Assembly: GCA_030834835.1 (NCBI GenBank)
Contig: JAUQXD010000593.1
Coordinates: 1-20,450, forward strand
Reading direction: 5' to 3'
DNA: 20,450 nt
From: Thermoflexales bacterium
GTDB taxonomy: Bacteria > Chloroflexota > Anaerolineae > Fen-1058
Both the position numbers and the translations under genes were made by a program. The notes under the pieces are model-generated. The model ran no database searches. It worked only from the letters and a program-made list of their open reading frames with translations, and was not told the DNA's origin. Each line of letters starts with the position of its first letter. Position 1 is the stretch's first letter. Below, piece after piece: positions 1 to 20,251 of the stretch.

Positions 1-123
1 GTAACCGGTCAGGCCCCGCAAGCGGACGCCGTGGGACTCAGCGCCATCATTGCGCTTACACTCCTGCTGTTGGGGTATTTTGTCTTTAAGCGCACTGAAC
101 CGGTCTTTGCAGATCTGATCTGA
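1..123 (+). CDS. ABC-2 polysaccharide export permease, C-terminal end (partial)
   Basis: Open from the window edge to TGA at 121-123, giving the last 40 residues of a protein. They hold one hydrophobic helix (about residues 13-29, centred on IIALTLLLLGYFVF) followed by a short basic and acidic tail, KRTEPVFADLI. The last transmembrane helix plus a tail with a 'P.FAD' ending is typical of Wzm-type ABC-2 permeases that export O-antigen, teichoic acid or capsule. The Wzt-type ATPase gene starts at 581, as expected for such a pair, but permease and ATPase genes usually abut and here a decayed gene lies between them. The assignment rests on this short tail and the partner ATPase, so the family is likely but the substrate is not shown. 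Confidence 0.7.
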   Translation, partial: VTGQAPQADAVGLSAIIALTLLLLGYFVFKRTEPVFADLI

Positions 124-162: not shown

Positions 163-560
163 ATGCGGATTGAGGACCTGCAACTAGATCGTCGCGAGGC
201 ATGGACGCGCATGAGTGCCAGCGTGGTGTCGGCCCTGCGGGCCAATCAGCTGGACTATATTCAGACGCGCTCCCGGCTAATGATGTTTCACCTGAATTGT
301 TGGCCCAGGTGCTGGTGGATAAGGACTATCCGGTCTGCTGGTATCAAGAAGTGATTGAGCCGCTAACCGTGCCGGGAAGGCATGATCCTGTCAGGATTAT
401 CAAGAAACAGCTCTCGCACTTCAGCCGGCTCCGCGCCCGGCGGAACGCGCGAGATTGGCAGAGCGTCGTTAATCGCCCCGATCACAAATCCACCGGCGGT
501 CGCATTCGCCAACTCTATCGAGGCTTCAGAGCCATCGGCCGTAGCCAGGCCTATTCTTAG
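163..560 (+). pseudogene. Decayed third copy of the QueC-like PP-loop protein
   Basis: Three pieces of the protein encoded intact at 1851 and 3191 survive in two reading frames. Frame 163 starts MRIEDL (paralogues: MRIDNL, MRIENL) and after about 21 residues jumps near nt 226 to VSALRANQLDY, which matches the segment just after the SGGxDS loop (VSTLRGNRLDF, LATLRANRLNY). Near nt 257-262 it jumps again, and the match continues in the frame ending at TAG 558-560: DALPANDV, CWYQEVIEPLT, GRHDPVRII, ARDWQSV and LYRGFRAIG align with the paralogue C-termini. Roughly 107 and 180 codons are missing. The lost parts include the ATP-binding SGGxDS loop and all four zinc-ligand cysteines, so catalysis is excluded. 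Two separate deletions argue against a sequencing error. It sits between the permease and ATPase genes, which are normally adjacent. Confidence 0.88.
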
Positions 561-1850: not shown

Positions 1851-3092
1851 ATGCGTATCGACAATCTGCACACGGAACAGCACGGGCCGCGGCAGAGGGT
1901 GGCTGCCACGGTTACGTGGGAAGACTGCGATCGACCGGCCCGCCAGGTATACTTTGAAACAGACCAGGCTTTTGCCGAAGCGCTGACGCTCAACCCGAAT
2001 GCGTTCGTCACCGCCTGCATTATTCCGGCCATGCATCACCACGAGCAACGGTTAACGATCGACGCGCCGATCTGCCCGGAGCTTCGCAACGGGTTGATAA
2101 CGGCGATGAACTGGCAGCAGGTCTGGTACCCTGAAGGCTCAATAGTGCGGATCGAGGCGAAGGCGGACGCACAACCGATCGGACCACGCGACGCCAGGCG
2201 CACTGCCGTGTTTCTGTCCGGCGGCGTCGATTCAGTGTCGACGTTGCGGGGCAATCGGCTCGATTTCCCGCTCGATCATCCCGGTTCGATCAAGGATGGT
2301 CTGGTGGTGCACGGCTTTGACATCAGCGGCACCCAGGTCAGCGGCGATCAGACGCGTTTGTTCGAGCGCGCCCTGGAGGCCCTGTCGCCGATTGCCGGCG
2401 AAGCCGGAGTTACGCTCATTCCAGTGTCCACCAATTTGCGGCTGCTCGATGATAGCGTGGAGTTCTGGATGTACAAGTTTCACGGCGCCGCACTGGCTGC
2501 GGTTGCCCATGCGCTGGCCAATCGCATCGGCGCAGTGTATATTGCGTCGACGTATGACATTCGCAACATGAGGCCGTGGGGCTCACACCCGCTGCTTGAT
2601 CCCTTATACAGCAGCACTGATCTGCAAGTTCGCCACGCCTATGACCGGTTGTCACGCCTGGACAAAGTACGCCTCATCGCCGATTGGCCCACGGCCCTGC
2701 ACAACCTGCGCACCTGCACCGAAAACGATCCTGGCGCGCTAAATTGCGGCAAATGTGAGAAATGCATTCGGACCATGTTGGAACTATTGGCGGTGCGCAA
2801 GTTGGCGCACAGTTCGGCGTTTGCGGCTGACGACGTAACCGTGGACATGTTGCGCGACCTTCACATTACGAATGCCTACCAGAATTCGTGCTATCGCGAC
2901 CTGCTGGAGCCGTTGATCGCGAACGGGCGAGCGGATCTGGCGGCGGCCATTGAAGCTAGGTCGACCGAATTCCAGCGTCACCTTAGATGGACAGAAGAAA
3001 GGGATTGGAAAGGCGCCGTCAAGAAATTCGACCGCAAGTTTCTGGGCCGCGGCCTGTATCGTGCCTACCAATCACTGCGCGCGCTAGCCTGA
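1851..3092 (+). CDS. QueC-like PP-loop ATP-pyrophosphatase, copy A (putative glycan-modifying enzyme)
   Basis: 413 residues. The PP-loop SGGVDS at 123-128 marks an N-type ATP pyrophosphatase, which adenylates a carboxylate or similar group. Cys289, then C299-x2-C302-x2-C305 (LNCGKCEKC), is a four-cysteine site with nearly the spacing of the QueC zinc site. Between them are HGFDISG (154-160), FHGAALA (210-216) and WGSHPLLD (243-250), probably active-site segments. The N-terminal 115 residues form a beta-rich domain absent from QueC, and about 100 C-terminal residues after the cysteines are also extra. QueC makes a nitrile from a carboxylate with ammonia; here the setting suggests amidation or another modification of a uronic-acid-like sugar, which is inference. 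The start follows AAGGGAGAG, 1 nt after the wzt stop, so it is coupled to the transporter. Sugar amidotransferases of the WbpG/PseA type are an alternative. Confidence 0.82.
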   Translation: MRIDNLHTEQHGPRQRVAATVTWEDCDRPARQVYFETDQAFAEALTLNPNAFVTACIIPAMHHHEQRLTIDAPICPELRNGLITAMNWQQVWYPEGSIVRIEAKADAQPIGPRDARRTAVFLSGGVDSVSTLRGNRLDFPLDHPGSIKDGLVVHGFDISGTQVSGDQTRLFERALEALSPIAGEAGVTLIPVSTNLRLLDDSVEFWMYKFHGAALAAVAHALANRIGAVYIASTYDIRNMRPWGSHPLLDPLYSSTDLQVRHAYDRLSRLDKVRLIADWPTALHNLRTCTENDPGALNCGKCEKCIRTMLELLAVRKLAHSSAFAADDVTVDMLRDLHITNAYQNSCYRDLLEPLIANGRADLAAAIEARSTEFQRHLRWTEERDWKGAVKKFDRKFLGRGLYRAYQSLRALA

Positions 3093-3190
3093 TCGGGCGG
3101 CGATCCGATCTGAAGATGAATCATGGGGCTGCACCACCGCTGAACCTGATCAGCCAGACATGTCGAACCACGCTGGGAGCAAAAGCGCCA

Positions 3191-4519
3191 ATGCGAATTG
3201 AGAACTTGAGAACCGAAATCCGGGGGCGAAAGGTGCGCCGGGTTGCCACAGTCATCTGGGAAGATAGCCCTCGACCCACGCGCGATGTTTATTTCGCAAC
3301 CGACGAAGCCTACGCCGCGGACCTGGCACCAGGCCAACATGCGTTTCTAACCGCCTGTCTCATTCCGGCGATGCGCCACGGCGAACGGCGCATCAAGCTG
3401 GATGAACCGATTGCCCCGGAACTGCGAAACGGCCTGCATATCAATATGGTGTATCTGCGCTCGTGGTATGGCACGCCGCGCAACTTAGTGCAGATTGAGG
3501 CCAGCACAGAACGTCGTCAGCCTATTCCGCGCACCGCAACAAATGCTGCTTCATTCTTATCGGGCGGAATTGACTCACTGGCTACCTTGCGGGCAAATCG
3601 CCTGAATTACCCGGCCGACCATCCCTATTCGATCGCAGACTGCCTGATCGTGCACGGATTCGATATCGGCGGACGCGAAGCCGTGGGAGATGAGGCGGAT
3701 TTCTTCGATCGGACACTGGCCACCCTGACCCCCATCGCCCAGGATGCCCGGGTACATCTCATTCCAGTCGCCACCAACATCCGCCACCTGGACGATGACG
3801 TGACCTTCTGGATGTACGAGTTTCACGGCGCGGCCCTGGCAGCGGTGGCGCATGCTTTGTGCCGTCGAATCAGCCGCGTCTGCATCGCCGGTACCATGCA
3901 CGTACCCTTTCTCGAGCCGTGGGGTTCACATCCAGCGCTGGATTCAAATTACAGCTCCGTCGATCTGCAGGTGGAGCACGACGGACTGGCGATGTCGCGC
4001 CTGGAGAAAGTGCAGCTCATCGCCGACTGGGATGTAGCCTTGCGCGACCTGCGGGTCTGCACCATGAACCCCGCCCGGGGTCTGAACTGCGGACGCTGTG
4101 AAAAGTGCCTGCGCACCATGTTGGAACTGCTGGCCTGCGGCAAGCTCGCCCGGACCTCGGCCTTTCCGGCCCAGGACGTGACGGCGGATCAAATTTTGAA
4201 TATTCACATTGACGTCGAATTTCCGGCTCCCTGGTATCAAGAACTTGTGGCGCCGTTGACGGATCGGGGCCGAGCCGATTTGGCGCACGCCATCCAGGAA
4301 AAATTAAATGAGTTCGAACACCACAAGGTGTGGCAACAGGAAAAAGACTGGAAGGGCCTTATCAAGCGCTTCGACCGACGGTTCCTGCGCGGTGTACTGT
4401 ATCAATCGTATCGCGCCACGCGGCAGGTGGTGCGTTCAAAGGCGCCCATGTTGCAGTTGCTGGCGGGAGCCGCGACAGGATTGGACGCCTGGGCACAACT
4501 GCCCGGTGGCTTGATATGA
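3191..4519 (+). CDS. QueC-like PP-loop ATP-pyrophosphatase, copy B (putative glycan-modifying enzyme)
   Basis: 442 residues, clearly paralogous to the product of 1851 along its whole length: MRIENL start, SGGIDS PP-loop at 124-129, HGFDIGG at 155-161, FWMYEFHGAALA at 206-217, WGSHPALD at 244-251 and the zinc-type cysteines C290, C300, C303, C306 (LNCGRCEKC). All catalytic-type motifs seen in copy A are kept, so both copies look active. The start was placed at 3191 because it matches the paralogue N-terminus and has GGGAG at 3175-3179; the frame is open further upstream but would overlap copy A. About 25 extra C-terminal residues (QLLAGAATGLDAWAQ) distinguish it from copy A. Its stop overlaps the next ATG by 4 nt, coupling it to the pyruvyltransferase fusion. 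The substrate is unknown; a heteromer with copy A or a different sugar substrate are both possible. Confidence 0.83.
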   Translation: MRIENLRTEIRGRKVRRVATVIWEDSPRPTRDVYFATDEAYAADLAPGQHAFLTACLIPAMRHGERRIKLDEPIAPELRNGLHINMVYLRSWYGTPRNLVQIEASTERRQPIPRTATNAASFLSGGIDSLATLRANRLNYPADHPYSIADCLIVHGFDIGGREAVGDEADFFDRTLATLTPIAQDARVHLIPVATNIRHLDDDVTFWMYEFHGAALAAVAHALCRRISRVCIAGTMHVPFLEPWGSHPALDSNYSSVDLQVEHDGLAMSRLEKVQLIADWDVALRDLRVCTMNPARGLNCGRCEKCLRTMLELLACGKLARTSAFPAQDVTADQILNIHIDVEFPAPWYQELVAPLTDRGRADLAHAIQEKLNEFEHHKVWQQEKDWKGLIKRFDRRFLRGVLYQSYRATRQVVRSKAPMLQLLAGAATGLDAWAQLPGGLI

Positions 4520-6210
4520 ACATCGGCGTGATCGGTTGGTGGAACAACGGCAACCAGGGCGATTTTGCGATCCTGGAGAATATCACGCTGGCGCTGGCGG
4601 CCCATCGCGTCGTTCCGATCGATGTGCCGTTCCACATCACACCCGACGAAATCGCTCGCCTCAACCAGCTGGATTTCTTAATCTTTGGCGGCGGCGGCCT
4701 GTTGACAACCAGCCCGGCTGTGCCCTTTGATACGTTCGATGCCTGGGGCGACGAACTCCACACCCCGATCGGCATCCTCGGCCTTGGGGTGGATGAAGTT
4801 AAGCCGCAACACCGGCGGGCGGTGCAGTTGTTGCTTGATCGGGCCAGGTTCGTTTTTGTGCGTGATACCACGAGCCAACGACTATTGAATCATCCTAAAG
4901 TACAGTTGATGCCGGATGTAACTTTCTGGCAGCCTCCAACAACCATGCCACACCTCACCGATCTGGCGCATCCCAGCTGCGGCGTGAACTTGCGCTCCCT
5001 GTCACCCGCCGATCGGCAGCAGTGGATTGCAACCCTGCAATCACTACCCCTGCGCCTCCGCGGCGTGCCGCTCGCCACTTACGGCGCGTTTGAAGAACTG
5101 GAGACGCTGCAGGCCATCGATCCGCGGGTGTCGCGAACGTTTGACCACGGTGTGTATCAACAGATTGATCTGATGATCGGCACAGCGTTCCACTCTGTGA
5201 TCTTTGCCATTCAGGCCGGTGTGCCTGTCATCGCCATCGGTTATGCACCCAAAGTCGCGCGGTTGATGACCGAGTTGGGGTTGAGTGACTTCTTGCTGAA
5301 AACCGACGAATGGCGCAAATTGGCCGGCCTCGTCGAGCGTGTCAAGAATGACCATGAATCGATAGCCGCGCGGTTGCGCGAGACCACGCGTCAACTTTCG
5401 CAGAGCACCCAACAGATCATGCGTGATGTGCAGGACCTGATCGAAGGCGTGACGCCGGCACAGCCAGCCGCAGAGGCGCTGGCCAGTATCATCGTCCTTG
5501 ATTCAGACTCGGCCGAAGCCACCCACCGAACGTTGGCATCCTGTCTCAAGCAAACATACCCGAATACAGAGATCGTCCTGGTGTCAGCTGGCCACCAGCA
5601 GAGTGATAATCCGACGGTAAAGTTGGTCGCCTGCGCCGCCAACCCTTCGCTCGCGCGCCGCATCAATGCGGGTCTGGCGAAGGCCAGCGGCCAATACCTG
5701 ACATGGATCAACGCGGGCGATCGGTATACCCTGGACGCCATCGCGGTGCTGGTCCATCGACTACAGCAAGAGCCAGCGTGCGCAGCAGTTTACGCCGATC
5801 ACTATACAATGCATGAGCCGCAGCTCATCGCCGCTGCCCACCGGGTAGACGAGCCGAACAAATTGATCCGGCGCAATGTTGTGGAGCCTTGCTTCTTGTA
5901 CCGGCGGAGGCTTCACGACGAGCTCATGTCGCTGGCCGAGCAGACCGCCCTGCCCGCCTACGATTTTTGGCTGCGCGCCTGGCAATCGGCGCGACTTTTG
6001 CCAATCCATGCGCGGTTGATGTACTGCGAGCCGTCTGACAGTGCACCTGGCGACTGCGCGGCAGAACGGCAGACGCGACATCAATGGCGAGCCACACAGC
6101 CGTGGCTTAAACGCACCGCCTGGAACATCGTCGACACGGAATTTGTCGAGTCCCATGCCGTGCAGCCTCTCTTGAAACTACGGCGTCGGCTAAGAGCGAA
6201 CCGGTCATGA
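4516..6210 (+). CDS. Polysaccharide pyruvyltransferase family protein fused to a divergent GT2-like domain
   Basis: 564 residues. Residues 1-300 match the polysaccharide pyruvyltransferase family (CsaB/WcaK type): N-terminal NIGVIGWWNNGNQGD, the glycine run FGGGGLL (57-63), LGLGVDEV (88-95) and near the end GTAFHSVIFAIQAGVPVIAI (222-241). Such enzymes move pyruvate from phosphoenolpyruvate to a sugar as a ketal. A linker with a possible coiled coil (about 280-312) leads to residues 323-560, which follow the GT2 fold: ASIIVLDS, SCLKQTYPNTEIVLV, NAGLAKASGQYLTWINAGDRYTLDAI. The usual GT2 DDGSxD is replaced by VSAGHQ and the DxD-like site reads NAGD, so sugar-nucleotide binding may be altered or lost. 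The start at 4516 overlaps the preceding stop (ATGA) and suits the family N-terminus; the end overlaps the next gene by 4 nt. The fusion is in one frame with no sign of a sequencing join. Confidence 0.82.
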   Translation: MNIGVIGWWNNGNQGDFAILENITLALAAHRVVPIDVPFHITPDEIARLNQLDFLIFGGGGLLTTSPAVPFDTFDAWGDELHTPIGILGLGVDEVKPQHRRAVQLLLDRARFVFVRDTTSQRLLNHPKVQLMPDVTFWQPPTTMPHLTDLAHPSCGVNLRSLSPADRQQWIATLQSLPLRLRGVPLATYGAFEELETLQAIDPRVSRTFDHGVYQQIDLMIGTAFHSVIFAIQAGVPVIAIGYAPKVARLMTELGLSDFLLKTDEWRKLAGLVERVKNDHESIAARLRETTRQLSQSTQQIMRDVQDLIEGVTPAQPAAEALASIIVLDSDSAEATHRTLASCLKQTYPNTEIVLVSAGHQQSDNPTVKLVACAANPSLARRINAGLAKASGQYLTWINAGDRYTLDAIAVLVHRLQQEPACAAVYADHYTMHEPQLIAAAHRVDEPNKLIRRNVVEPCFLYRRRLHDELMSLAEQTALPAYDFWLRAWQSARLLPIHARLMYCEPSDSAPGDCAAERQTRHQWRATQPWLKRTAWNIVDTEFVESHAVQPLLKLRRRLRANRS

Positions 6211-7406
6211 GCCTGCTGAACATCAGTACAATCATTCCATCGTATAATCGCGCGAACTATTTGCGGCTCGCCCTGGATAGCGTGCTTGGCCAGACCTATC
6301 CCGTAGCCGAAATCATCGTCGTCGACGACGGCTCAACCGACAACACACGCGAAGCCGTGCAGCAATACGAGGGCAGAGTACGCTTCTACCAACAGAATCA
6401 TGGTGGAGTATCGGCGGCGCGCAACAAGGGGTTGGAACTGGCCCGGGGTGAAATCATCGCCTGGTGTGACGCCGACGACATATGGGAACCAACGTTTTTG
6501 CAGCGCACGGTATCATTGTTAGAAAACGATCCGCGGTTGGATGGGGCGTATGCCGGGGTCGTGCACATCGATTCAGCTGGCAACCGTCTGCCGCAGGAAA
6601 ACCGCGTCGCGGTGCCGCCCGATCAGCTTTACGCAGCCCTGGCAGATGATTGTTTTATTCAGACGACCGCTTTCGTCATGCGCAAGCAATGTTTTGATCA
6701 GGCCGGCTGGTTTGACACCGACTTCGACATCAGCGAAGATTATGATATGTTCTTGCGGCTCGCAAAGCGCTACCGCATTGTCGGGGTGGGCGAGCCGCTG
6801 GTTCAGTATCGGGTGCATCAGCAGAACACGGTCGCCAATACAACCAGGTGGTGCGAGTCACGATTGGCCTTGACGCGCAAGCACTTCGGTGATCCGCGCG
6901 AGGGCGGGGCAGCGCTGACGGTGCAACAGCGCCGTGCGCATGCCTACGCTTATCGGGCCGCGGCGATCAAGTGCTTGCAGGACGCTGCTGACGATCGGGG
7001 CTGGCAGTATCTGCGCCAGGGAGCCATCATCTGGCCGGAGATGCTGAGCCAGCTTAGTACGGCGTATGAACTAGTTTGCGGCAATCAGGCACCCGGCCTG
7101 CGCGGAGATGCCGCCCATATGAATCTGCCGCAACGCGAATCGTATATGCAGCAGTATCTGAACGAGCTGTTTCGGCTAGCCGATCCTGCACTGGCGCGCC
7201 ATCGGGGCAACGTGTATGGCAATACCTATCTGGCGCTGGGTATGTTGAGCGATCAGGCCGGTAATTGGCCAGCCGCGCGTCGTTACTTGCTCAGAGCGTT
7301 GCAATCGAACCCGCGCCTGAGCGCCAGGTCTGTCGTCTTGCGGCGGCTGCTCAAAGTTTCAGGAGCCGGAAGAATCACGGCGGCATTGCGCAAAATTCGC
7401 GCCTGA
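6207..7406 (+). CDS. Family 2 glycosyltransferase with C-terminal helical (TPR-like) extension
   Basis: 399 residues. An N-terminal GT-A fold of family 2: STIIPSYNRANYL at 7-19, VVDDGSTD at 38-45, nucleotide and metal site DADD at 88-91, and the acceptor-side SED at 176-178 (probable catalytic base region). It would transfer one sugar from a nucleotide donor to the growing lipid-linked glycan at the cytoplasmic membrane. Residues about 225-399 are helical; the part near 335-375 (YLALGMLSDQAGNWPAARRYLLRAL) looks like a TPR unit, a common tail in such GTs. It overlaps the preceding gene by 4 nt and is followed by 32 nt before the next start. All GT2 motifs are intact, in contrast to the divergent GT2 module just upstream. 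The sugar is not predictable. Confidence 0.92.
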   Translation: MSLLNISTIIPSYNRANYLRLALDSVLGQTYPVAEIIVVDDGSTDNTREAVQQYEGRVRFYQQNHGGVSAARNKGLELARGEIIAWCDADDIWEPTFLQRTVSLLENDPRLDGAYAGVVHIDSAGNRLPQENRVAVPPDQLYAALADDCFIQTTAFVMRKQCFDQAGWFDTDFDISEDYDMFLRLAKRYRIVGVGEPLVQYRVHQQNTVANTTRWCESRLALTRKHFGDPREGGAALTVQQRRAHAYAYRAAAIKCLQDAADDRGWQYLRQGAIIWPEMLSQLSTAYELVCGNQAPGLRGDAAHMNLPQRESYMQQYLNELFRLADPALARHRGNVYGNTYLALGMLSDQAGNWPAARRYLLRALQSNPRLSARSVVLRRLLKVSGAGRITAALRKIRA

Positions 7407-7438: not shown

Positions 7439-8692
7439 ATGAAATTACTCTTTGTCACTAATCTATATCCGCCGCATCATCTGGGCGGATACGAGCAACT
7501 GTGCCACGAGGTGACGGCGCGCTTGCAGGCGCGCGGGCACACGCTACATGTTTTGACCAGCACCTTTGGGGCGCAGCACCAGCAATCGGAACCGGGAATT
7601 GACCGCCGCCTGTTGCTTGAAAGCGATGTCTACTTCTATCGGCCGCAGCAGATCGTACACTACCGTGCGATTCAATCTCATAATCGACAGGTGATTGAAC
7701 GCACGTTACAGACAATCGCGCCGGATGCGGTTGTCCTGTGGGGCATGTGGAAGTTATCCAGACAAGTAGCGAAACAGTTGGAAGAACCAACCGCCCCACC
7801 CCTCGCTTACTATCTGGCGAGCGAGTGGCCCAACGAGCCCGGCGCACACGAGGAATACTGGGACGGTTCGGCCGATCGCATTGGCGGCAGACTGTTCAAA
7901 CGATCGCTGCGGGGCGTGGTGAAGTCAGCGCTCCGTTCGGAGTGGCGGCCCTATCAGTTGCGCTACCAGCATGTCATGACGTGCAGCGCGGCGGTGCGCG
8001 ACAATCTCGCAGCCGCGAGTGTCCCGGTCAGGCACGCCAAAGTTGTGTATCACGGAATCGACCCGGAGGCTTATGGTGAAATTGCCGATCGGGTTGCCAA
8101 TCAAGCCGGCGCTGCGCTCAAGGTGGTGTTCGTTGGCAGTCTAGTGCCGCACAAAGGCACGCACACCGCCATCGAGGCCATCAGGCGCGTTCTGGAACAA
8201 TACCCTGACGCGCCGATCTCGCTGGATATTCTGGGCAAAGGACATCCGGACTACGAAGTGAGATTGCATGAAGCTGTTAAGAGCTGGCAGCTCGAGCGAG
8301 TGGTTACCTTTCACGATCCGATTCCACGCGCGGACTTACCGGAGTTTCTAGCCCGCTTCAACACCATGGTACTGCCATCTATCTGGGCCGAACCGCTGGC
8401 CCGTATCTCACAAGAGGCGATGGCCGCGAAACTCGCACTGGTTGGCACGCTGACGGGCGGCACCAAAGAGATACTGAACGATGGAGTTAACGGCCTGGGA
8501 TTCCCGCCGGACGACGCGAATCTACTGGCACAACAGTTGATCCGGTTGCTGACTGATCCAGCCTTGCGTCGCCAACTTGCTGAGGCAGGTTGGAAAACAG
8601 TGACCGAGCGCTTTACGATGGCGCGCATGCTAAATGAACTGGAAACCTATCTGGACAATCTAGTGGCCAGCGATCGCAATCGAGGTAAGTGA
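7439..8692 (+). CDS. Family 4 glycosyltransferase (GT-B), first of a similar pair
   Basis: 417 residues in the GT-B fold. The N-terminus MKLLFVTNLYPPHHLGGYEQ with the acceptor-side glycine motif and the C-terminal donor domain (FVGSLVPHKGTHTAIEAI at 231-248; LDILGKGHPDYEVRL) are typical GT4. The E-x7-E pair is E318 and E326 in EPLARISQEAMA. It retains the anomeric configuration in characterised members. The start was placed at 7439 because it gives the conserved hydrophobic first strand; the reading frame is open further upstream but overlaps the previous gene. A weak GAGG lies 14 nt before it. It resembles the next gene closely at the N-terminus (GGYEQLC shared), suggesting tandem duplication. 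A long insert at about 125-175 (EWPNEPGAHEEYWDG) is also shared in outline with the next gene. Donor and acceptor unknown. Confidence 0.92.
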   Translation: MKLLFVTNLYPPHHLGGYEQLCHEVTARLQARGHTLHVLTSTFGAQHQQSEPGIDRRLLLESDVYFYRPQQIVHYRAIQSHNRQVIERTLQTIAPDAVVLWGMWKLSRQVAKQLEEPTAPPLAYYLASEWPNEPGAHEEYWDGSADRIGGRLFKRSLRGVVKSALRSEWRPYQLRYQHVMTCSAAVRDNLAAASVPVRHAKVVYHGIDPEAYGEIADRVANQAGAALKVVFVGSLVPHKGTHTAIEAIRRVLEQYPDAPISLDILGKGHPDYEVRLHEAVKSWQLERVVTFHDPIPRADLPEFLARFNTMVLPSIWAEPLARISQEAMAAKLALVGTLTGGTKEILNDGVNGLGFPPDDANLLAQQLIRLLTDPALRRQLAEAGWKTVTERFTMARMLNELETYLDNLVASDRNRGK

Positions 8693-8696
8693 GTCA

Positions 8697-9977
8697 ATGT
8701 CTGGCAAGAACTCGCCTGTCATGAGGATTCTAATCATCAGCAACTATTATCCGCCCTACGAAGTTGGCGGCTATGAACAACTGTGCCGGGATGTTGCCCT
8801 GCGATTGATGAAACGTGGACATCAGATTCAAATCTTGACCAGCCAACGCGGCACCGCCGGGCAGTCACCGTTGGGCGAGTCAAACGTCCATCGGGTATTG
8901 CGCCTGCAACCTGATTATGAATCCAGGCAAAGCGCCAGCGCGCAATTCTTCTTGCATCGCCGCCGCGATGAGGCTCACAATGTACGGTGTTTGCAGAAGT
9001 TGATCGGTGAATTCAAGCCCGACGTGATTTTCATGTGGAACCTGGAATACCTGCCCGGTGCACTGGCGCTGACGGCGGAAAACACACCGGGCGCAGGCGC
9101 CGCCTACTGGCTGGCGGGCTACTCGCCCATGGAGCCAGAAGAGTTTTGGAAGTATTGGGACCGCCCGGCCAACCGATCGGTCGTCAAGCCGTTTAAGCGA
9201 GCGCTGCAAAAAATCGCACTGGGCATGATGTCCGACGAAAAGCACACGCGACATCAGGTTCAGATGCGCCACACCGGCATTGTCAGCGACTACATGCGGC
9301 AAAGGGGTGTTGCGGCCGGAACCATACCTTCGCAGACGCGAGTCATTTACAACGGCATTGAACCGGAATTATTCTATCGTCCGGTTTCTTTGAAAGCAAC
9401 CGACAAACTGATCTTGCTACAGGCGGGACGAATCAGTGCCGACAAAGGAGTTCATACAACGATTGAAGCCATCGGACATTTGGCAGCCAACTACACCGCC
9501 GGGCAAGTGCACCTGAACATTGCCGGCTCCGGCCCGGCTGACTATCAAGATCATTTACGACAGCTGGTTGATCAATACCACATCGGCGATCGGGTTTCGC
9601 TGCTGGGCTGGCTCGCGCGCGACAAAATACCGGAGTTGATGGCGCAGAGCCATGTACTGGTACTGCCCACCACACATCAGGAGCCTTTCGCGCGGGTCGT
9701 CCTGGAAGCGATGGCCAGCGGGTTGACCATTATTAGCACGGTGACGGGTGGTACCGGCGAAATCATTCAACATGGTGTAACCGGCTTGACCTTTGCGGTT
9801 GAAGACAGCCGCGACCTGGCCCGTCAGATCGAGCAGTTGATGCTGAATCCTGCTCTTAGAACCCAACTGGCAACTTGTGGGCAGCAGTTGGTGCTTGAAA
9901 AATTCAGCCTCGATCGTATGGTTGAAAATGTCGAGCAGTTGTTGCGCGAAGCCTGCGCCGATCGCGGCCACAGGTAA
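8697..9977 (+). CDS. Family 4 glycosyltransferase (GT-B), second of a similar pair
   Basis: 426 residues from ATG 8697. The conserved N-terminal strand begins at MRILIIS, coded from an in-frame ATG at 8721, so the real protein may be 8 residues shorter; 8697 is 4 nt after the previous stop and is preceded by GTGAG, while 8721 has no obvious ribosome site. Motifs: YYPPYEVGGYEQLC at 17-30, VIYNGIEPELF at about 216-226, QAGRISADKGVHTTIEAI at 242-259, AGSGPADYQ, and E-x7-E with E329 and E337 in EPFARVVLEAMA. It closely parallels the product of 7439, including a tryptophan-rich insert (PMEPEEFWKYWDRP, about 144-157), so the pair probably adds related sugars or similar linkages. Donor sugar not predictable. 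Confidence 0.92.
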   Translation: MSGKNSPVMRILIISNYYPPYEVGGYEQLCRDVALRLMKRGHQIQILTSQRGTAGQSPLGESNVHRVLRLQPDYESRQSASAQFFLHRRRDEAHNVRCLQKLIGEFKPDVIFMWNLEYLPGALALTAENTPGAGAAYWLAGYSPMEPEEFWKYWDRPANRSVVKPFKRALQKIALGMMSDEKHTRHQVQMRHTGIVSDYMRQRGVAAGTIPSQTRVIYNGIEPELFYRPVSLKATDKLILLQAGRISADKGVHTTIEAIGHLAANYTAGQVHLNIAGSGPADYQDHLRQLVDQYHIGDRVSLLGWLARDKIPELMAQSHVLVLPTTHQEPFARVVLEAMASGLTIISTVTGGTGEIIQHGVTGLTFAVEDSRDLARQIEQLMLNPALRTQLATCGQQLVLEKFSLDRMVENVEQLLREACADRGHR

Positions 9978-9984
9978 TAGTCAG

Positions 9985-11187
9985 ATGCGGGTACTCTTTC
10001 TTTCAACCTGGTTTCCTTACCCAACCGATAATGGCTCAAAAATTCGAGTGCATTATTTGCTAAAAGCGCTGGCGGAAAGACATCAGGTCAGTTTGATTTC
10101 ATTTGCGTTTGATACCGCCAACCCCGATCGGGCAGACGAGCTACGCGGGCTTGGCATTGAGGTGCAAGCCGTCCCCGTCAATCCCTTTGATCAACAGCAG
10201 AAGATGGGGGCGCGGCGGTTCTTGTCCCCGGCTCCCGCTGTAACCTATCCCGTGCAAGAGATGAGCGACGCGGTGCGCGCGGCCAGCGGCCGACAGTCGT
10301 TCGACGTGGTAATCGCGTCCATCGAAGTCACCGCGACTTACCTGGACCACTTGCCTGGAGCGACGAAACGGGTTTTGGAAGAACACAATTCCCTGACGCG
10401 CTGGATGTGGGAACGGTATCAATCACAGACCTCGCTCCCTCAACGGCTCAGATGCTGGCTGAGTTGGATCAAGACGCGTTCTTACGAGGCCCGCCTGTTC
10501 CGTCAGTTCGATCTGTGCACGATGGTCTCCGAGCAGGATCGACGGACAAGCCTGGGTCTGGCGCGGAACTTTCCGGGGCCGATCGAGGTAATACCAAACG
10601 GCGTTGATTGTCAGCACAATCGGCCTGGCCTGAGCCCGGCCGTACCCAATCGCCTGATCTACACCGGGGCTTTGACTTATCAGGCAAACTATAATGCGGT
10701 ACAGTACTTCTTAGCTGAAGTTTACCCGATCGTCCGGCAGTCTGTGCCAGAAGTGAGTTTGATTATCACGGGTTCGAAAGTGGGGGTGGATCTTAGTCGT
10801 CTGGAATTAGATGATAGCGTCCATCTTAGCGGCTATGTCGATGACGTGAGGCCCTTGATCAGCAGCAGCAGTATCTGCGTTGTGCCAATTCAAGAAGGCG
10901 GCGGAACGCGCTTGAAGATTTTGGAGGCGATGGCTTTAGGAACGCCTGTCATCTCGACATCAAAGGGCGCGGAGGGCCTGGCTGTTACGCATAACGAACA
11001 CTTATTGATTGCCGATGATTCAACTGCTTTTGCCGAGGGCATACTGAGACTGCTCAAAGATCCCGATTTGCGTGAGCGGCTGGCCGCCCACGCCCGACGT
11101 TTGGTTGAGCAACACTATGATTGGGATCATATTGGCCGGCGCTTTGTGGCTCTTATAGAACGTACCAACAAAGGACCGGGTAGATAG
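9985..11187 (+). CDS. Family 4 glycosyltransferase, third and distinct
   Basis: 400 residues. N-terminal MRVLFLSTWFPYPTDNGSKIR with 'PxPxDNGxKxR' is a signature of a GT4 branch common in exopolysaccharide clusters. Other landmarks are EEHNSLTRWMWERY (132-145), VIPNGVDC (202-209), YTGALTYQANYNAVQYF (226-242) and the C-terminal EGGGTRLKILEAMALGTPVIST (304-325), where the E304 and E314 region is the donor-phosphate site of this branch. It is not a close paralogue of the two GT4 genes before it. ATG 9985 is used because it begins the conserved strand and follows the previous stop by 7 nt; the frame is open upstream but overlaps the preceding gene. It ends 2 nt before the ligase-like gene. Donor unknown. 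Confidence 0.92.
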   Translation: MRVLFLSTWFPYPTDNGSKIRVHYLLKALAERHQVSLISFAFDTANPDRADELRGLGIEVQAVPVNPFDQQQKMGARRFLSPAPAVTYPVQEMSDAVRAASGRQSFDVVIASIEVTATYLDHLPGATKRVLEEHNSLTRWMWERYQSQTSLPQRLRCWLSWIKTRSYEARLFRQFDLCTMVSEQDRRTSLGLARNFPGPIEVIPNGVDCQHNRPGLSPAVPNRLIYTGALTYQANYNAVQYFLAEVYPIVRQSVPEVSLIITGSKVGVDLSRLELDDSVHLSGYVDDVRPLISSSSICVVPIQEGGGTRLKILEAMALGTPVISTSKGAEGLAVTHNEHLLIADDSTAFAEGILRLLKDPDLRERLAAHARRLVEQHYDWDHIGRRFVALIERTNKGPGR

Positions 11188-11189
11188 TC

Positions 11190-12614
11190 ATGTTAGGGAC
11201 TCTACAGAATACTGTTCCAGGCCGTGAATTCTGGCGGCGGTTATTGCCGGTTGCCGTGTTGTTGGCGGCCGCCATTCTTGGATACGACGCCTCACCCGTC
11301 TGGCTATTCGTACCAATTGGCCTCGCTGTAATCCTGGTCCTGCTGCGGCAGCCACTGCTCGGCCTGATGGGATTGATTGTCGCGGCTCTGGCAGTCAAGT
11401 TCGCCATCAATACCGGGACTGAAGTTAGCCTGAATGCTGCGGCAACACTGGTTCCCATCCTGTTCGTCATCTGGTTGCTCAATCGGATGCATGACCATGA
11501 CATTCGTCTGGTAAAGTCGCGGGCTAACCTGCCGTTGATCCTTTTTCTGCTCAGTGGTCTACTGTCTATCTTCATTGGCAATGTAACCTGGGCGCCGTCT
11601 GTGCCGAAGTCAGGTAACTTTATCATTGTGCAATTTGCGCAGTGGGCGATGTGGGCGTTTTCGGCAATCGCATTCTGGCTGGCCGGCAACACCGTGAAGA
11701 CCATTACCTGGCTGCGCCGCCTGACCATTTGTTTCATCACCGTTGCCGGTCTCCTGGCGATGGTGCGGGTCACGCCCAACGGTTTTGACACGCTCTACAA
11801 CACGGTGTCGTTTGCCGTAGATCGTGCGCCATTCTGGTTATTGCTCACGGCGTTGAGTGTCGGGCAACTCCTGTTCAATCGGAGAATCACTACCTGGCAA
11901 CGCCTAGCGCTGTACGTGATCATAGGCGCAATTATCCTGTACTCGTTTGGCGAAGAGCAAGAGAGAATGGCGAATTGGGTCAGCGTCGTTTGCGCGGTGG
12001 GCGTGCTCATCTGGCTGCGCTTCCCCCGCGTACGACTGGTTGTAGTTGTGGCGATTCTCGTGCTGATCGGTAGTGGAGTTCTATTTCGCTTCATCTATGA
12101 CTTTGCGGGCGGTGATGCGAAATGGGACGAGAGCGGCGGCTCACGGCTGGCGCTGATAGGCAGCGTAGTTGAGTTGAGCATGCATAATCCAATCACCGGC
12201 TTGGGGCCGGCGGCTTATCGCGCTTACGGCAAGACCACGTCATTACAGTATGGGCGCGTTTTTTATTCCTCCGCATGGCTTTCATCGCACAACAACTACG
12301 TGGATATTTTCTCCCAGACTGGCATCCTGGGTCTTGGGCTGTTCCTGTGGTTCATGCTGCAAGTATTCCTGCTTGGACTGCGCCTGCGCAAACGTTACCC
12401 GGACGGTTTTGCCGGCGGCTACGTCAACAGTATGATTGCGGTCTGGGCGGGCATTATGGTCATCATGGCGATAGGCGACTGGTTCCTGCCGTTCGTTTAT
12501 AACATTGGGTTTCCAGGCTTTCAGGCCAGTGTACTGGTCTGGATGTTCCTGGGCGGGTTGATCGCGCTGGACCACATCCAGCCGGCGGCCCCCACTGGAT
12601 CGTCGAACGCATAA
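11190..12614 (+). CDS. O-antigen ligase/Wzy polymerase family membrane protein
   Basis: 474 residues, strongly hydrophobic with about ten to twelve membrane segments (for example about 18-31, 37-70, 82-98, 114-130, 148-165, 178-193, 214-229, 238-252, 262-276, 281-300, 372-396 and two near the C-terminus). The large outward loop between about 301 and 370 carries GGSRLAL (316-322) and PITGLGPAAYRAYG, followed by SSHNNYVDIFSQTGILGLG (365-383). This is the Wzy_C/WaaL pattern, in which a loop arginine and the His of SHNNYVD are important. It would join lipid-linked glycan units, or transfer glycan to an acceptor, on the outer face of the membrane. An ABC-exported chain does not need a Wzy polymerase, so a ligase role is favoured here; that is inference. 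Start 2 nt after the GT4 stop, end overlapping the next ATG by 1 nt. Confidence 0.9.
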   Translation: MLGTLQNTVPGREFWRRLLPVAVLLAAAILGYDASPVWLFVPIGLAVILVLLRQPLLGLMGLIVAALAVKFAINTGTEVSLNAAATLVPILFVIWLLNRMHDHDIRLVKSRANLPLILFLLSGLLSIFIGNVTWAPSVPKSGNFIIVQFAQWAMWAFSAIAFWLAGNTVKTITWLRRLTICFITVAGLLAMVRVTPNGFDTLYNTVSFAVDRAPFWLLLTALSVGQLLFNRRITTWQRLALYVIIGAIILYSFGEEQERMANWVSVVCAVGVLIWLRFPRVRLVVVVAILVLIGSGVLFRFIYDFAGGDAKWDESGGSRLALIGSVVELSMHNPITGLGPAAYRAYGKTTSLQYGRVFYSSAWLSSHNNYVDIFSQTGILGLGLFLWFMLQVFLLGLRLRKRYPDGFAGGYVNSMIAVWAGIMVIMAIGDWFLPFVYNIGFPGFQASVLVWMFLGGLIALDHIQPAAPTGSSNA

Positions 12615-13549
12615 TGGACCTTTCGATTCTTCTCGTCAATTGGAATACCCGTGAACTGCTGCGCAACTGTTTGCATTCGTTGCGGGCCACAGCCGATCGG
12701 TTGTCGGAAGTCACCCTGATCTTCGGCAACCACACAGCCGAGGTCATCGTCGTCGACAATGCTTCGCGCGACGATAGCGCCAGCATGGTGCGAACCGAAT
12801 TCCCGTGGGCGTTATTGATTGAAAACGCACGCAATCTGGGTTTTGCACCGGCCAACAATCAAGCGTATGAGCAGGCCACCGGCGAATACGTGTTGTTATT
12901 GAACAGTGATACGGTGGTTCAGCCGGAGGCGATCAGGCGTCTGATGGATTTCATGGCAAGTCAGGCGGATTGCGGCGGGGCCGGTGCGCGGTTGCTGAAT
13001 GCCGACGGCAGCTTACAGCCTTCATGTCAGCCGATGTTGACGCCGTGGCGGGAGTTCTGGCGTTTGATATTTCTCGACCGCGTCTGGCGGCAGGCCACCT
13101 ACGATCTGGATCGCTGGCCGATCGATATAGCCCGCCCGGTCGAGACCATCAAGGGAGCCTGTCTGATGGTGCGCCGCGCTGCACTTGATCCGGCGGCGTC
13201 TTTACTGGACGAACAATACTTCATGTACACCGAAGAGGTAGATCTGTGTTATCGACTGGCAGATGCAAACTGGAAGCTGTACTGGGTTCCCCAGGCCACT
13301 GTCACCCACTTTGGAGAAGGAAGCAGCCGTCAGGCTTACACTCAAATGTATGTGCAGTTATATCGCAGTAAGGTTCAATTCTATCGAAAATTCGGCGGCG
13401 AGTCACGAGCAAGACGTTTTAAGCGGCTCTTGCGGCTCGCATACTGGCCGCGCTTAATGGCCGCCCGGCTTGGCCGAGTCTTTAAACCCGCACTGGTCGA
13501 TCGAGTGCGCACTCTTCAGGAGTTGTTGATCGAACTTCCGCGCATGTAG
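12614..13549 (+). CDS. Family 2 glycosyltransferase, rhamnosyltransferase-like (WbbL group)
   Basis: 311 residues. LSILLVNWNTRELL at 3-16, VVDNAS at 46-51, NLGFAPANNQAYEQATG (74-90), the metal site NSD at 97-99, GACLMVRR at 181-188 and YTEEVDLCYRL at 205-215. NxS/VDNAS plus 'NSDT' and 'EEVDLCYR' identify the WbbL/rhamnosyltransferase-like GT2 branch, although the donor need not be rhamnose. Its TAATG overlap with the ligase-like gene indicates translational coupling. It is the last gene of the + strand operon; the opposing DNRLRE gene ends only 3 nt further on. A basic C-terminal stretch (about 267-300) may hold the enzyme at the membrane. Confidence 0.92.
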   Translation: MDLSILLVNWNTRELLRNCLHSLRATADRLSEVTLIFGNHTAEVIVVDNASRDDSASMVRTEFPWALLIENARNLGFAPANNQAYEQATGEYVLLLNSDTVVQPEAIRRLMDFMASQADCGGAGARLLNADGSLQPSCQPMLTPWREFWRLIFLDRVWRQATYDLDRWPIDIARPVETIKGACLMVRRAALDPAASLLDEQYFMYTEEVDLCYRLADANWKLYWVPQATVTHFGEGSSRQAYTQMYVQLYRSKVQFYRKFGGESRARRFKRLLRLAYWPRLMAARLGRVFKPALVDRVRTLQELLIELPRM

Positions 13550-13552
13550 GTT

Positions 13553-15304
13553 TTACCCCAGTATCACTGGCAAATAGACACGCCGGCCATTCGCAATCAC
13601 CGTTGTCGTGCTGGTCGCAACGCCAGCCAGACTATCGGTCAATACCGCCCTGCTAACAAGCGCGGCTGGAGCAACGGCCGAGATCTTCACCGGAAACACA
13701 ATGGTGACGGGCACACCCGGCGCAACAGTTGCCGCCCAATCGATGCGGTGCTGTAGCGCGTTGTAGGTAGCGGCTCCCCCGCCACTTGTGTTCAGGCTCA
13801 GGGGCGCACTCACCAACTCTGGCAACACCTTCGTCAGCGTCATGGCGTGACCGCTGCCTTGCAACGAGACCGTATACGTCACCGTGGTTCCGGTTGCAGC
13901 AAATACAGGTTGTACCTCAGCCTTGAGTGTTGGTCCGACGCTCCCCCATGCAACGGATAACGCAGGCCGACCCTGAGCGTTATACTCCTCAACATCCGAC
14001 GAATGAAAATAACGGCCGCCATGAAATGGACCGTGGGACGAGTACAGCGCCAATCGCACTGGCTGGTTGGCGTGGTGGGCCTCAGCCACGGCACGGCTCA
14101 CATCCCAAACGTACGGTATTCCAGGATAGGGAGGCGCGGTCTGTACGGACGGAATCAAAACGCCCCCCAGATTTTCTCGAGCGAGTGGCGCGTTGTTCCA
14201 CGTGATGTTGTTTTCGCTCCAGTCATCGCCCACCGTAAATACTTGCACGAAAGACGCTTCAGGCGCGGGGCCAGGGTTTCCACTATGATATAACGTCAAC
14301 GTGGCCGAGATAACCGTTTTGCCTGACGGTATGGAGCTTAACGGGAAAGTAACAAACGCTTTCGAAAAGCACGGCCATTCGGATATTGCCTCCACGTTCT
14401 GCACATTGAACAGAACTTTGTGGGCGTGGTTGAGGTTGCCCCACTGCACGAAATAGTCGGACAGCCCACCGCCACATTCGTTATCCCCGCCGACAGCGGC
14501 ATCCGGCACCACGGCGCCATTCAGACCCTGGCGGATGGTCGTCGTGCCCTGTTTCACCACCGATGCGGGCGGCACGTACGCAGGCCTGCCAAAATACAAC
14601 TGGCCCCACGACGACGGCTGATTGGTCGACAGATTCGGCGGCCAAAACTTGTCGGGAGTCATCGAACCCGTTGCAACATCCCGATCGTGCACTGCAATTC
14701 CAAGACCCCAGGTTGTGCCCGGCGCCGGTGGACTGGACATGCCCAGGCTGTCAAATGGAATTCGAAAAGCGATGAACCAACCGTGATGGGCCCCAGGTTC
14801 ATTCGGTGGAACGGAACCATTCCAATTGTTGTAGGTCGTAAACGGGATCGATGCCGGCACCCAGGCAGAACCATTGCCGCGATATGTCGCCTGGTAGTCC
14901 GCGCGCGACTCCCACCAGCTTAATTGTCCATCAAAACGGTAACTGTCTGGGGTTGGCGCGCCGCCACTGTTGCCGCGCTTGTCGAGATAGATCGTCACGG
15001 AATCCCAGTCAGTCAAGGTTGCCGCCGCAGGCTCCGTGTCATACCATAGATGTTGATCCATGATATTCACATGCAGCCACAGCGCCTGATCGATGTAGGC
15101 AACCCGTACGTCGGCGTAATTCTCGGTGGGCGTCACGCGCCCCAACCAAAACACAGCAGATTCATCAAAGACCAGGCCATTGCTGAAGTGTGGTGCATTC
15201 ACTCGATACATGACTGGCAGCGGCGCTGCCAGAGCGCCGCTGCCAGATACCGGGCCAGCCGCCAACAAAGCCACGAGAATCAACCGGTGTAAATATCTTC
15301 CCAT
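13553..15304 (-). CDS. Secreted CBM9-like, DNRLRE and DUF11-like domain protein
   Basis: 583 residues. A signal peptide covers about residues 1-27 (MGRYLHRLILVALLAAG ... ALAAP). Residues about 38-240 resemble a CBM9-type carbohydrate-binding fold (AYIDQALWLHVNIMD, DSVTIYLDKRGN, WWESRADYQATY). Residues about 255-455 match the DNRLRE domain (VTFPLSSIPSGKTVISATLTL, DDWSENNITWNNAP, RPALSVAWG), a beta module of secreted and surface proteins. Residues about 458-570 are DUF11-like (TVTYTVSLQGSGHAMTLTKVLP). It ends YLPVILG with no membrane anchor. It likely binds glycan outside the cell; no catalytic site was recognised. AAAGG lies 7 nt before the ATG. The gene follows the PQQ-propeller gene by 21 nt on the same strand, so the two are co-transcribed. 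Confidence 0.85.
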   Translation of the reverse strand: MGRYLHRLILVALLAAGPVSGSGALAAPLPVMYRVNAPHFSNGLVFDESAVFWLGRVTPTENYADVRVAYIDQALWLHVNIMDQHLWYDTEPAAATLTDWDSVTIYLDKRGNSGGAPTPDSYRFDGQLSWWESRADYQATYRGNGSAWVPASIPFTTYNNWNGSVPPNEPGAHHGWFIAFRIPFDSLGMSSPPAPGTTWGLGIAVHDRDVATGSMTPDKFWPPNLSTNQPSSWGQLYFGRPAYVPPASVVKQGTTTIRQGLNGAVVPDAAVGGDNECGGGLSDYFVQWGNLNHAHKVLFNVQNVEAISEWPCFSKAFVTFPLSSIPSGKTVISATLTLYHSGNPGPAPEASFVQVFTVGDDWSENNITWNNAPLARENLGGVLIPSVQTAPPYPGIPYVWDVSRAVAEAHHANQPVRLALYSSHGPFHGGRYFHSSDVEEYNAQGRPALSVAWGSVGPTLKAEVQPVFAATGTTVTYTVSLQGSGHAMTLTKVLPELVSAPLSLNTSGGGAATYNALQHRIDWAATVAPGVPVTIVFPVKISAVAPAALVSRAVLTDSLAGVATSTTTVIANGRRVYLPVILG

Positions 15305-15325
15305 ACGACAACCTTTGCGCCCGAT

Positions 15326-18202: not shown

Positions 18203-18211
18203 TTGAATTTG

Positions 18212-18218
18212 CCCCCTT
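18212..18218 (-). promoter_or_regulatory. Strong Shine-Dalgarno of the PQQ-propeller gene
   Basis: AAGGGGG on the - strand, 9 nt before the ATG at 18202. It decides the start: the in-frame TTG at 18235 lies upstream of this site and has no such signal. Confidence 0.75.
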
Positions 18219-18249
18219 ATAATCCACTTTTTCAAACCTCACGCAAACC

Positions 18250-18865: not shown

Positions 18866-18899
18866 GTGTGACCGGCCGTGCAGAGTCATGTCACTTCAT

Positions 18900-18904
18900 G
18901 GAGG
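18900..18904 (+). promoter_or_regulatory. Shine-Dalgarno that fixes the LamG gene start
   Basis: GGAGG at 18900-18904 is 9 nt before ATG 18914. An in-frame GTG at 18878 would extend the protein by 12 residues but lacks such a site and would place polar residues ahead of the signal peptide. Confidence 0.75.
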
Positions 18905-18913
18905 ACCAGACAA

Positions 18914-20251
18914 ATGACACACCATCAACAAACACCCATTCGACTAAGCCTCATCGTTAAAATACTGATCGTGGTCATGTTGCTGAGTTTCGTCACGAAC
19001 ATGGCCTATGCGGGCAATGACGGCGGCATGGACCTTGACTTTGGCGGCGTTAATGAGGCTGTCGCTGCCGTTCTGGACGGGACAGCTCTGACTCAGGTTA
19101 CCGTGGAAATGTGGATAAGGCCGACACCAGGGACAGGTGAGAGCGGCGTCTTTCAGTGGGCGTTTGAGCCAAGCGCCACGCAACCATTTATCTATTTCCG
19201 TTACAATTACGATACTGGGCAATTCCAGCTATATGCGGATAACGGCTACCGGATATCAACGACTATCTCGCCTGGGACATGGGCTCATATAGCGGTCACC
19301 TACGATGGAACTGACTGGAGATTGTACAGAAACGGCATCCTGGCTGGCGCGTATACGGGTTCAGCCGCGCACCAGTTAAATGCCTCGTATGTCTATTTCG
19401 GCAATGGGCTTGCTGGATTCTGGATCGGTCAGATCGATGAAGCCCGCATCTGGAATGTAGCTCGCACGCAAAGCCAGATCCAGGCCAACATGTATACGGA
19501 GCTGGCACCTTCATACCCGGCTGCCCTGATAGGGTACTACCAGTTTAACGAGGGTACGGGAACCGCGACCGCAAATGAGGTGGGTGGAGCGGACGGCACG
19601 CTGTTCAACATGGAAGAGGGCGATTGGATCGCCTCCACCGTGCCCCTGGGTGATCTGACCGCACATCAGAATGGCATCACTGCCATGTGGGCTGGCCAGG
19701 TGTCAACCGCTGCCGATGGCCTTGCCACGGGCCTGGATACTGGCAACGTTAGCTTCCTCAACGATGTGGGCGACGACATCATCTTTGCCCACAACAATGC
19801 CGCTTTTGCGAACTTGATTACTGAGGTGCCTGTCGGCGTTGACAAAAGGTGGGCGCGCGTCTGGGAATTGGACGTCAACGATGCTGCCGGTATAACTGGC
19901 GGCAACGTCAACTTGACCTTTGATATTTCAGACGCGGGTGGGCAATTCGACTTTAGCGGTTCAGGAACGTATTTCTTGCTCGGTCGCGCGGCCGGCAGCA
20001 CTGGTGTGTTTTCAATCATCCCAGTCGTCAGCACGAGTGTGACAGGCGATCAATTGACTTTTACAGTGAGCGCCAGTAACCTGGGATCAGAATTCACCCT
20101 GGGAGCCACCGCTGATTCCCCAACAGCGCTCAGTCTTCAAACCCTGGGCGCGCGCTCCAATGCAGGAAGCCAAATGGTGTTGCCGTTGGGAATGGTCCTG
20201 ATGGCTCTTGGCGGAGCAGCGCTTGTCTGGCGTCGGCGCCGTTCAGCCTAA
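18914..20251 (+). CDS. Secreted LamG-domain protein with C-terminal membrane anchor
   Basis: 445 residues. The signal peptide has hydrophobic core LIVKILIVVMLLSFV and probable cleavage after AYA (residue 33). Residues about 38-235 form a LamG/concanavalin-like domain (VTVEMWIRPTPG, GTWAHIAVTYDGTDWRLYRNG, IGQIDEARIWNVART, GYYQFNEGTG), a glycan- or protein-binding fold. Residues about 245-400 are a second beta-rich domain I do not recognise (AGQVSTAADGLATGLDTGNVSFLND). The C-terminus, PLGMVLMALGGAALVWRRRRSA, is a hydrophobic helix followed by arginines, a surface-anchoring or sorting-type tail without LPXTG or PEP motifs. Preceded by a long control region and followed by a GC-rich hairpin, it appears to be a single-gene unit. 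Likely a cell-surface adhesin or glycan-binding protein. Confidence 0.85.
   Translation: MTHHQQTPIRLSLIVKILIVVMLLSFVTNMAYAGNDGGMDLDFGGVNEAVAAVLDGTALTQVTVEMWIRPTPGTGESGVFQWAFEPSATQPFIYFRYNYDTGQFQLYADNGYRISTTISPGTWAHIAVTYDGTDWRLYRNGILAGAYTGSAAHQLNASYVYFGNGLAGFWIGQIDEARIWNVARTQSQIQANMYTELAPSYPAALIGYYQFNEGTGTATANEVGGADGTLFNMEEGDWIASTVPLGDLTAHQNGITAMWAGQVSTAADGLATGLDTGNVSFLNDVGDDIIFAHNNAAFANLITEVPVGVDKRWARVWELDVNDAAGITGGNVNLTFDISDAGGQFDFSGSGTYFLLGRAAGSTGVFSIIPVVSTSVTGDQLTFTVSASNLGSEFTLGATADSPTALSLQTLGARSNAGSQMVLPLGMVLMALGGAALVWRRRRSA

Follow-up and report, generated by a model that had tools for sequence, protein, structure and literature searches.

What do two tandem genes for PP-loop enzymes contribute to an operon for a surface glycan? 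We addressed this question in contig JAUQXD010000593.1 of a Thermoflexales bacterium (Chloroflexota), positions 1 to 20,450 (here, the window). Two paralogues, A and B, lie there between wzt, the gene for the ATPase of a glycan ATP-binding cassette (ABC) exporter, and a polysaccharide pyruvyltransferase gene. Our analysis indicates that A and B are almost certainly PP-loop ATP pyrophosphatases with a QueC/QatC-type fold and that they very likely act on surface glycans. That their substrates are glycans for Wzm/Wzt export, and that they work by carboxylate adenylation and amide formation, is a reading on which our confidence is nearly balanced, with doubt slightly ahead.

Two PP-loop paralogues beside wzt

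A and B share 55% identity (228 of 414 aligned positions), spread over the N-terminal region (56/112), the core (128/208), and the tail (41/93). The preliminary description had seen two full-length paralogues, each with SGG[VI]DS and C-x9-C-x2-C-x2-C, and had taken them for PP-loop proteins with a QueC-like core; motifs and fold agree with it on both counts. SGG[VI]DS is intact at position 123 of A and 124 of B, and the cysteine set, probably a zinc site, begins at positions 289 and 290, respectively. The structure model of A (predicted local distance difference test [pLDDT], 91.1; predicted template modeling score [pTM], 0.87) comprises an N-terminal domain (residues 1-112), the core (about 113-316), and C-terminal helices, with 122 residues ahead of the PP-loop and 108 after the last cysteine. 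The two extra regions, described earlier as absent from QueC, are indeed present, but they are not wholly unparalleled, as QatC aligns with the A model over residues 1-370 in the fold comparison and over 11-374 in the profile alignment. Searched by itself, the N-terminal domain matched nothing clearly, and no QatC was listed for it.

The pair is not a product of chance, because 1013 of 7,996 scored candidates are homologues at E <= 1e-3 and all four cysteines are kept in each of 298 aligned family rows (294 of them distinct). SGGxDS is present in all 120 nearest homologues and in 179 of the 217 members of the wider set. In these 120 sequences, conservation reaches 90% or more at 107 positions; at nine of these A or B has another residue, and none of the nine falls in the PP-loop or cysteine set. 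The alignment has a further cysteine at column 75 in 196 of 297 rows; the four QueC-type cysteines alone are universal. This argues against sulfur or other chemistry giving a thiocarboxylate or thioamide, as in LarE or the tRNA thiolases, which we consider extremely improbable for A and B. A changed PP-loop, SLGVDS, occurs in two family members (L108:7325-9271 and P0144), which may be inactive or mechanistically different.

The family has no name in Pfam and NCBIfam as searched: no Pfam model scored above its cut-off for A or B, and the NCBIfam scan was empty at E <= 1. The 120 listed homologues all bear the source name "hypothetical protein."

The coordinates confirm the coupling reported earlier, with a gap of 1 nucleotide between wzt and A and an overlap of 4 nucleotides between B and the pyruvyltransferase gene; the A-B gap measures 98 nucleotides. 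All operon genes lie on the + strand, in a single operon-like run from the end of the probable wzm through a family 2 glycosyltransferase (GT2) gene ending at 13549 (GT4, family 4 glycosyltransferase):

1..123, +, C-terminal end of a permease-like protein, probably Wzm (by sequence and position only), truncated by the contig start; frame 1, ending ...LLLLGYFVFKRTEPVFADLI*
163..536, +, decayed third PP-loop paralogue, from a translated match to homologue P0099
581..1849, +, wzt, glycan ABC exporter ATPase of 422 amino acids with a C-terminal extension (Pfam ABC_tran, 75.3 bits)
1851..3092, +, PP-loop paralogue A, 413 amino acids (motifs, structure model, fold match)
3191..4519, +, PP-loop paralogue B, 442 amino acids (motifs, identity to A); the mechanical open reading frame begins at 2987, and the in-frame ATG at 3191 was chosen because it aligns with residue 1 of A
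4516..6210, +, polysaccharide pyruvyltransferase-GT2 fusion, 564 amino acids (Pfam PF04230, 71.5 bits; PF00535, 38.1 bits)
6207..7406, +, GT2 glycosyltransferase (PF00535, 125 bits)
7439..8692, +, GT4 glycosyltransferase (PF00534, 98.9 bits)
8697..9977, +, GT4 glycosyltransferase (PF00534, 122.7 bits)
9985..11187, +, GT4 glycosyltransferase (PF13692, 99.2 bits)
11190..12614, +, Wzy_C O-antigen ligase/polymerase family membrane protein (PF04932, 52.7 bits)
12614..13549, +, GT2 glycosyltransferase (PF00535, 67.4 bits)

The Wzt product scored just 14.3 bits with Pfam Wzt_C (cut-off, 30.4) and fell below the cut-offs of the NCBIfam teichoic acid and galactan exporter models. Beyond the operon, the regions 13553-18235 (- strand) and 18878-20251 (+ strand) encode a CBM96 protein, a beta-propeller protein of the BamB/PQQ-like type, and a protein with a LamG domain. 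The tail of the last combines at its end a hydrophobic stretch with basic residues, which may be akin to a sorting signal.

The remnant at 163-536 retains approximately 21 first and 91 last residues of a family protein, while the core with the PP-loop is gone. Residues 1-21 of the metagenome protein P0099 match positions 163-225 in frame 1 (67% identity), and its residues 322-412 match positions 261-533 in frame 3 (65% identity; E 4.5e-35); two further searches recovered the same remnant. Therefore, a PP-loop gene formerly also stood between wzm and wzt, although an assembly error instead of decay may account for the remnant. Neither this remnant nor the GT2 domain encoded by 4516-6210 was noted in the preliminary description.

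Gene neighborhoods across the family

In the genome collection, at least 544 stretches encode the family, and 80 loci were kept for study. The hosts among the loci studied include Chloroflexota, Desulfobacterota-type bacteria, Myxococcota, Nitrospirota, Planctomycetota, Bacteroidota, and cyanobacteria. Presence is patchy: among 150 relatives two carry the family, as do six among 400 genomes of the phylum, and both counts include the window's own genome. Seventeen of 72,556 plasmid records matched (Azospirillum, Priestia, Gloeothece, Nostoc, Gemmobacter, and haloarchaea), and none of the phage records searched did. The gene caller overlooked the family gene in four of the 80 loci (L032, L057, L079, and L086) and in L111.

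A set of 11 glycan loci was picked by place in the tree and by neighbors, four of them (L106, L107, L109, and L110) coming from searches of the window's own phylum; the Wzt count for this set is thus a description and not an independent test. Wzt lies directly upstream of the PP-loop gene in six (L007, L011, L020, L025, L035, and L110) and one gene further upstream, behind a PGA_cap gene, in L109. It is absent upstream in L008, where a pyruvyltransferase takes that place, in L014, where no gene precedes it on the contig, and in L106 and L107, which have other genes there. A GMC oxidoreductase is encoded within three genes downstream in 5 of the 11 (L011, L014, L020, L035, and L109), and sulfotransferase and carbamoyltransferase genes stand near the PP-loop gene in L020 and L035.

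The recurrent partner is the pyruvyltransferase (PF04230; CsaB/WcaK/ExoV type), a neighbor and fusion mate of the family rather than a relative. Locus L110 repeats the order of the window, Wzt, PP-loop protein, and pyruvyltransferase, with a very divergent PP-loop protein. In two fusions, P0121 (the L107 protein) and P0122, a pyruvyltransferase domain follows the PP-loop part. Of the plasmid records, 13 of the 17 were surveyed for neighbors (H5, H7, H8, and H12 were left out) in PLSDB gene tables that are incomplete. The pyruvyltransferase is the next gene in eight of the 13 (Azospirillum, four; Gloeothece, two; Priestia, two), and a single gene separates the two in Gemmobacter; eight of these nine positive records are confined to three genera. 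Across four lineages, random placement would give at least three adjacent pairs at P 0.008, in a small test chosen post hoc. In Priestia the pyruvyltransferase gene stands ahead of a tandem PP-loop pair, and in Azospirillum the two genes lie between a multicopper oxidase gene and a molybdate transporter gene, without other genes of glycan synthesis; this lone pair is seen at L112:8845-11230. Other fusions seen were PP-loop proteins with a methyltransferase (P0144 and P0150) and an odd pairing of many pyruvyltransferase-type proteins with coenzyme F420 hydrogenase beta-subunit domains (PF04432 and PF04422; P0123-P0136). Taken together, the Wzt and pyruvyltransferase neighbors sustain the link to ABC-dependent glycan export and decoration that the preliminary description had drawn. 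Its more specific suggestions, amidation of a uronic acid and recognition of that mark by the Wzt C-terminal domain, are conjecture.

Tandem copies recur: two or more PP-loop genes are present in 5 of the 11 glycan loci (L007, L011, L014, L020, and L106). The first copies of L011, L020, and L014, which represent three phyla by record title, cluster with a Shimodaira-Hasegawa-like approximate likelihood ratio test (SH-aLRT) value of 99, so the duplication predates these three loci. No supported group unites the second copies, and by this tree A and B may or may not descend from that same event. P0192 carries two family domains in one chain, the first of them degenerate and weakly matched by the wide family profile (25.4 bits; E 1.4e-9 among four sequences, while its reverse was not among the reported matches).

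Whether homologues lie mostly outside glycan loci, a point raised at the outset, has a divided answer: 54 of the 80 kept loci fall to a sister clade and 10 are cyanobacterial loci, in which neither Wzt nor any shared neighbor was seen, but these are branches other than the window's. In a 108-row tree, a branch of 54 rows is set apart (SH-aLRT 100), made up mostly of Desulfobacterota and including the "Deltaproteobacteria" records (Myxococcota by NCBI ranks). In the sister set, which contains every locus not assigned to another set, an upstream gene is within reach for 52 of the 54 loci. In 45 of these, the gene directly upstream encodes a RimK-like ATP-grasp protein; a GNAT-type gene occurs within three genes in 42, and Wzt occurs within three genes in two loci. 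The RimK identity rests on TIGR00768, which scored above cut-off in all three loci checked, and TIGR03103 scored only far below cut-off. The combination of GNAT, ATP-grasp, and amide former resembles the N-acetylglutaminylglutamine amide pathway, and a pathway to a small-molecule or peptide amide is possible for this trio. The row of three genes is typified by L018:6859-11143, with 54 similar loci. We regard this RimK/GNAT branch as a finding in its own right, one that would take the QueC fold into an apparent amino-acid ligase pathway.

The sister clade also bears on the function of A and B, which might couple a carboxylate to an amino acid, an amino sugar, or another amine instead of ammonia. 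Besides the RimK-like and GNAT neighbors, Mur-ligase-like, formyltransferase, and PGA_cap genes near other family members are in keeping with this idea. However, no consistent amine-supplying gene was found among the glycan loci read, and for A and B we consider such coupling quite unlikely.

A proposed carboxylate activation

In PP-loop enzymes built on this core, ATP serves to activate a carbonyl or carboxyl group, and pyrophosphate is released. Because the neighbors of A and B are glycan genes, a carboxyl group on a glycan is the most likely target, and its activation by A and B is probable. Computation shows the intact motifs, the fold class, and the linkage to Wzt and the pyruvyltransferase; the course that follows, from adenylation to the roles of the two copies, we infer. 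The PP-loop would bind ATP and use it to convert a carboxylate, on either a glycan or a glycan precursor, to an acyl-adenylate, pyrophosphate being released. Attack by an amine, in the simplest case ammonia, would then yield an amide as the product, an assignment we make tentatively. The best candidates for the carboxylate are a uronic acid and the pyruvate ketal set by the neighboring pyruvyltransferase, the latter being a doubtful choice when taken singly. The tandem copies have diverged and would probably act at different positions or together.

An extended version of this scheme, in which the carboxyl group is masked in two steps, appears unlikely as a whole. The pyruvate ketal would first be set and then adenylated by the QatC-like PP-loop enzyme to give an amide or amine conjugate, so that the negative charge is lost; A and B would work each at its own site or jointly as a pair, the product might serve as a chain-end mark for Wzm/Wzt, and the sister clade would cap an acetylated peptide by the same chemistry. 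If an amide on the pyruvate ketal is indeed formed, these would be genes for a charge-masking step in the structure of a capsule or exopolysaccharide.

The adenylate might also meet another fate. In an ATP-dependent epimerase, as proposed for MurL, the carboxylate is adenylated, the neighboring carbon is epimerized, and the adenylate is hydrolyzed. MurL consumes ATP, yields AMP, has a sugar-linked residue as its substrate, and had no known domains (PMC8788868 and PMC5808125). C5 epimerization of a uronic acid would be feasible in this way. Yet the MurL mechanism is itself put forward as a hypothesis in PMC8788868, and an epimerase function of A and B is distinctly unlikely.

Several results weigh against carboxylate amidation of exported glycans by a QatC-like enzyme. 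(i) A profile built from seven pyruvyltransferases found one next to the PP-loop gene in just 2 of 86 genome loci (L008 and L110), and the L107 fusion was not among its hits; the pyruvyltransferase domains of P0121 and P0122 scored modestly, at 30.7 and 26.7 bits against a cut-off of 25.3. (ii) The plasmid stretches of Nostoc and three haloarchaea list no pyruvyltransferase. (iii) The sister clade adjoins RimK and GNAT genes. (iv) Foldseek returned nothing at E <= 0.001, the narrow family profile A1 compared with QatC gave E 0.0087 at a probability of 4.6%, which is no match, and single QatC sequences reached E values of just 1.5e-4 to 8.4e-3.

Comparison with known PP-loop systems

QueC, the enzyme that produces preQ0 from 7-carboxy-7-deazaguanine, differs from A and B in lacking the two extra regions, and A and B lack the QueC pathway context and substrate motifs. 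The QueC model PF06508 gave 11.1 bits for A (cut-off, 22), did not list B at E <= 1, and was listed at that threshold for 7 of 43 family members, at best with 0.052. The zinc motif has a spacing of 9 in A and B versus C(x)8CxxCxxC in QueC, and the x8 pattern occurs in 2 of the 120 nearest homologues. The QueC motifs YxQxHxxE, VPxRN, and YPDC (as given in PMC13329287) each occur in none of these 120, and VPxRN occurs in one of the 217 of the wide set; the control is weak, in that L093, the one QueC-like protein available for comparison, carries VPxRN alone. DUF6395 was rejected as a relative, with matches at E <= 1 in 5 of 43 members (best, 0.15) and 0.0093 for the L110 protein, all below cut-off. 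QueC apart, no weak Pfam match comes nearer, and one Priestia plasmid has a DUF6395 gene close to its tandem PP-loop pair (L119:13820-14612).

QatC, of the anti-phage qatABCD system (NF041925; PDB 9y01 and 9y02), is more similar, sharing with A and B the PP-loop, the QueC-type core, four cysteines, an HP site (SHP in the A/B family), and a length of about 400-450 residues, and having N- and C-terminal extensions that may correspond to theirs. It differs in the zinc spacing ascribed to it (19 versus 9) and in RxRxxx[FY] and P(x)4TK, which are found in all five QatC sequences at hand and are absent from A and B. The patterns D(x)4R(x)7WxR and C(x)19CGxCxxRR are also absent from A and B, but they fit just one and none of those five. 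Its gene neighbors are qatA, qatB, and qatD, whereas those of A and B are wzt and genes for the pyruvyltransferase, glycosyltransferases, and Wzy_C.

The deazaguanine is held by a Tyr and an Asp in QueC and Cap9, and QatC has Thr278 and Thr280 there (PMC13279940). Anchoring on the HP site puts a proline, P242 (239 of 290 rows), and a glycine, G244 (265 of 297 rows), at the equivalent places in our family. The window's own genome, 90.7% complete, encodes a QueD-like protein; its searches gave no QueC (the sole PF06508 match is an NAD synthetase), no QatC by NF041925, and no match to two QueE models. Because the binding residues are replaced, the QueC motifs are absent, and QueC, QueE, and QatC are not matched in this genome, a deazaguanine substrate is unlikely for A and B, and deazaguanine chemistry was set aside as first choice.

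The same residues bear on modification of a protein N-terminus, as carried out by Cap9 and proposed for QatC, in which A and B might modify an exporter subunit or a glycosyltransferase. Among known proteins QatC comes closest when the full length is considered, and protein targeting by QatC is backed by PMC13279940, although its reaction is given there as unresolved. P242 and G244 stand in place of both the Tyr/Asp and the Thr/Thr pair, however, and the genome has the gaps just described. Moreover, PADLOC gave no match for four family members, and the complete Wzt and GMC partners examined do not begin with Met-Gly, except for the L110 Wzt, whose called start is an uncertain GTG. We therefore give this alternative little credence. 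Cap9 (type IV cyclic oligonucleotide-based antiphage signaling system [CBASS]; PDB 9nto), is a protein of about 185 residues that keeps the QueC substrate motifs (PMC13329287).

The preliminary description held that QueC-type chemistry is not known as an established step of capsule or O-antigen synthesis. This was too strong, as the PP-loop amidotransferases of the NASAT group (WbpG/PseA/WbuX), with a zinc tetracysteine, are already assigned to lipopolysaccharide synthesis (PMC10607449 and, for WbpG/NASAT, PMC13329287). A and B might likewise form an amidine, or carry out a related amidotransfer, on an N-acyl sugar. The NASAT pattern CxxC(n)[GN]xCxxC, however, is absent from A, B, and all 217 family members, and no NCBIfam model matched A or B, so that we rate this option as highly unlikely.

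The fold, the general chemistry, and a PP-loop amidotransferase of lipopolysaccharide synthesis are already known. The family, its tie to Wzt and the pyruvyltransferase, the fusions, and the RimK branch did not turn up in searches of open-access papers and seem not to have been described. The QueC fold has recently moved from nucleobase chemistry to protein modification in phage defense, and the family represented by A and B would bring it into surface glycans.
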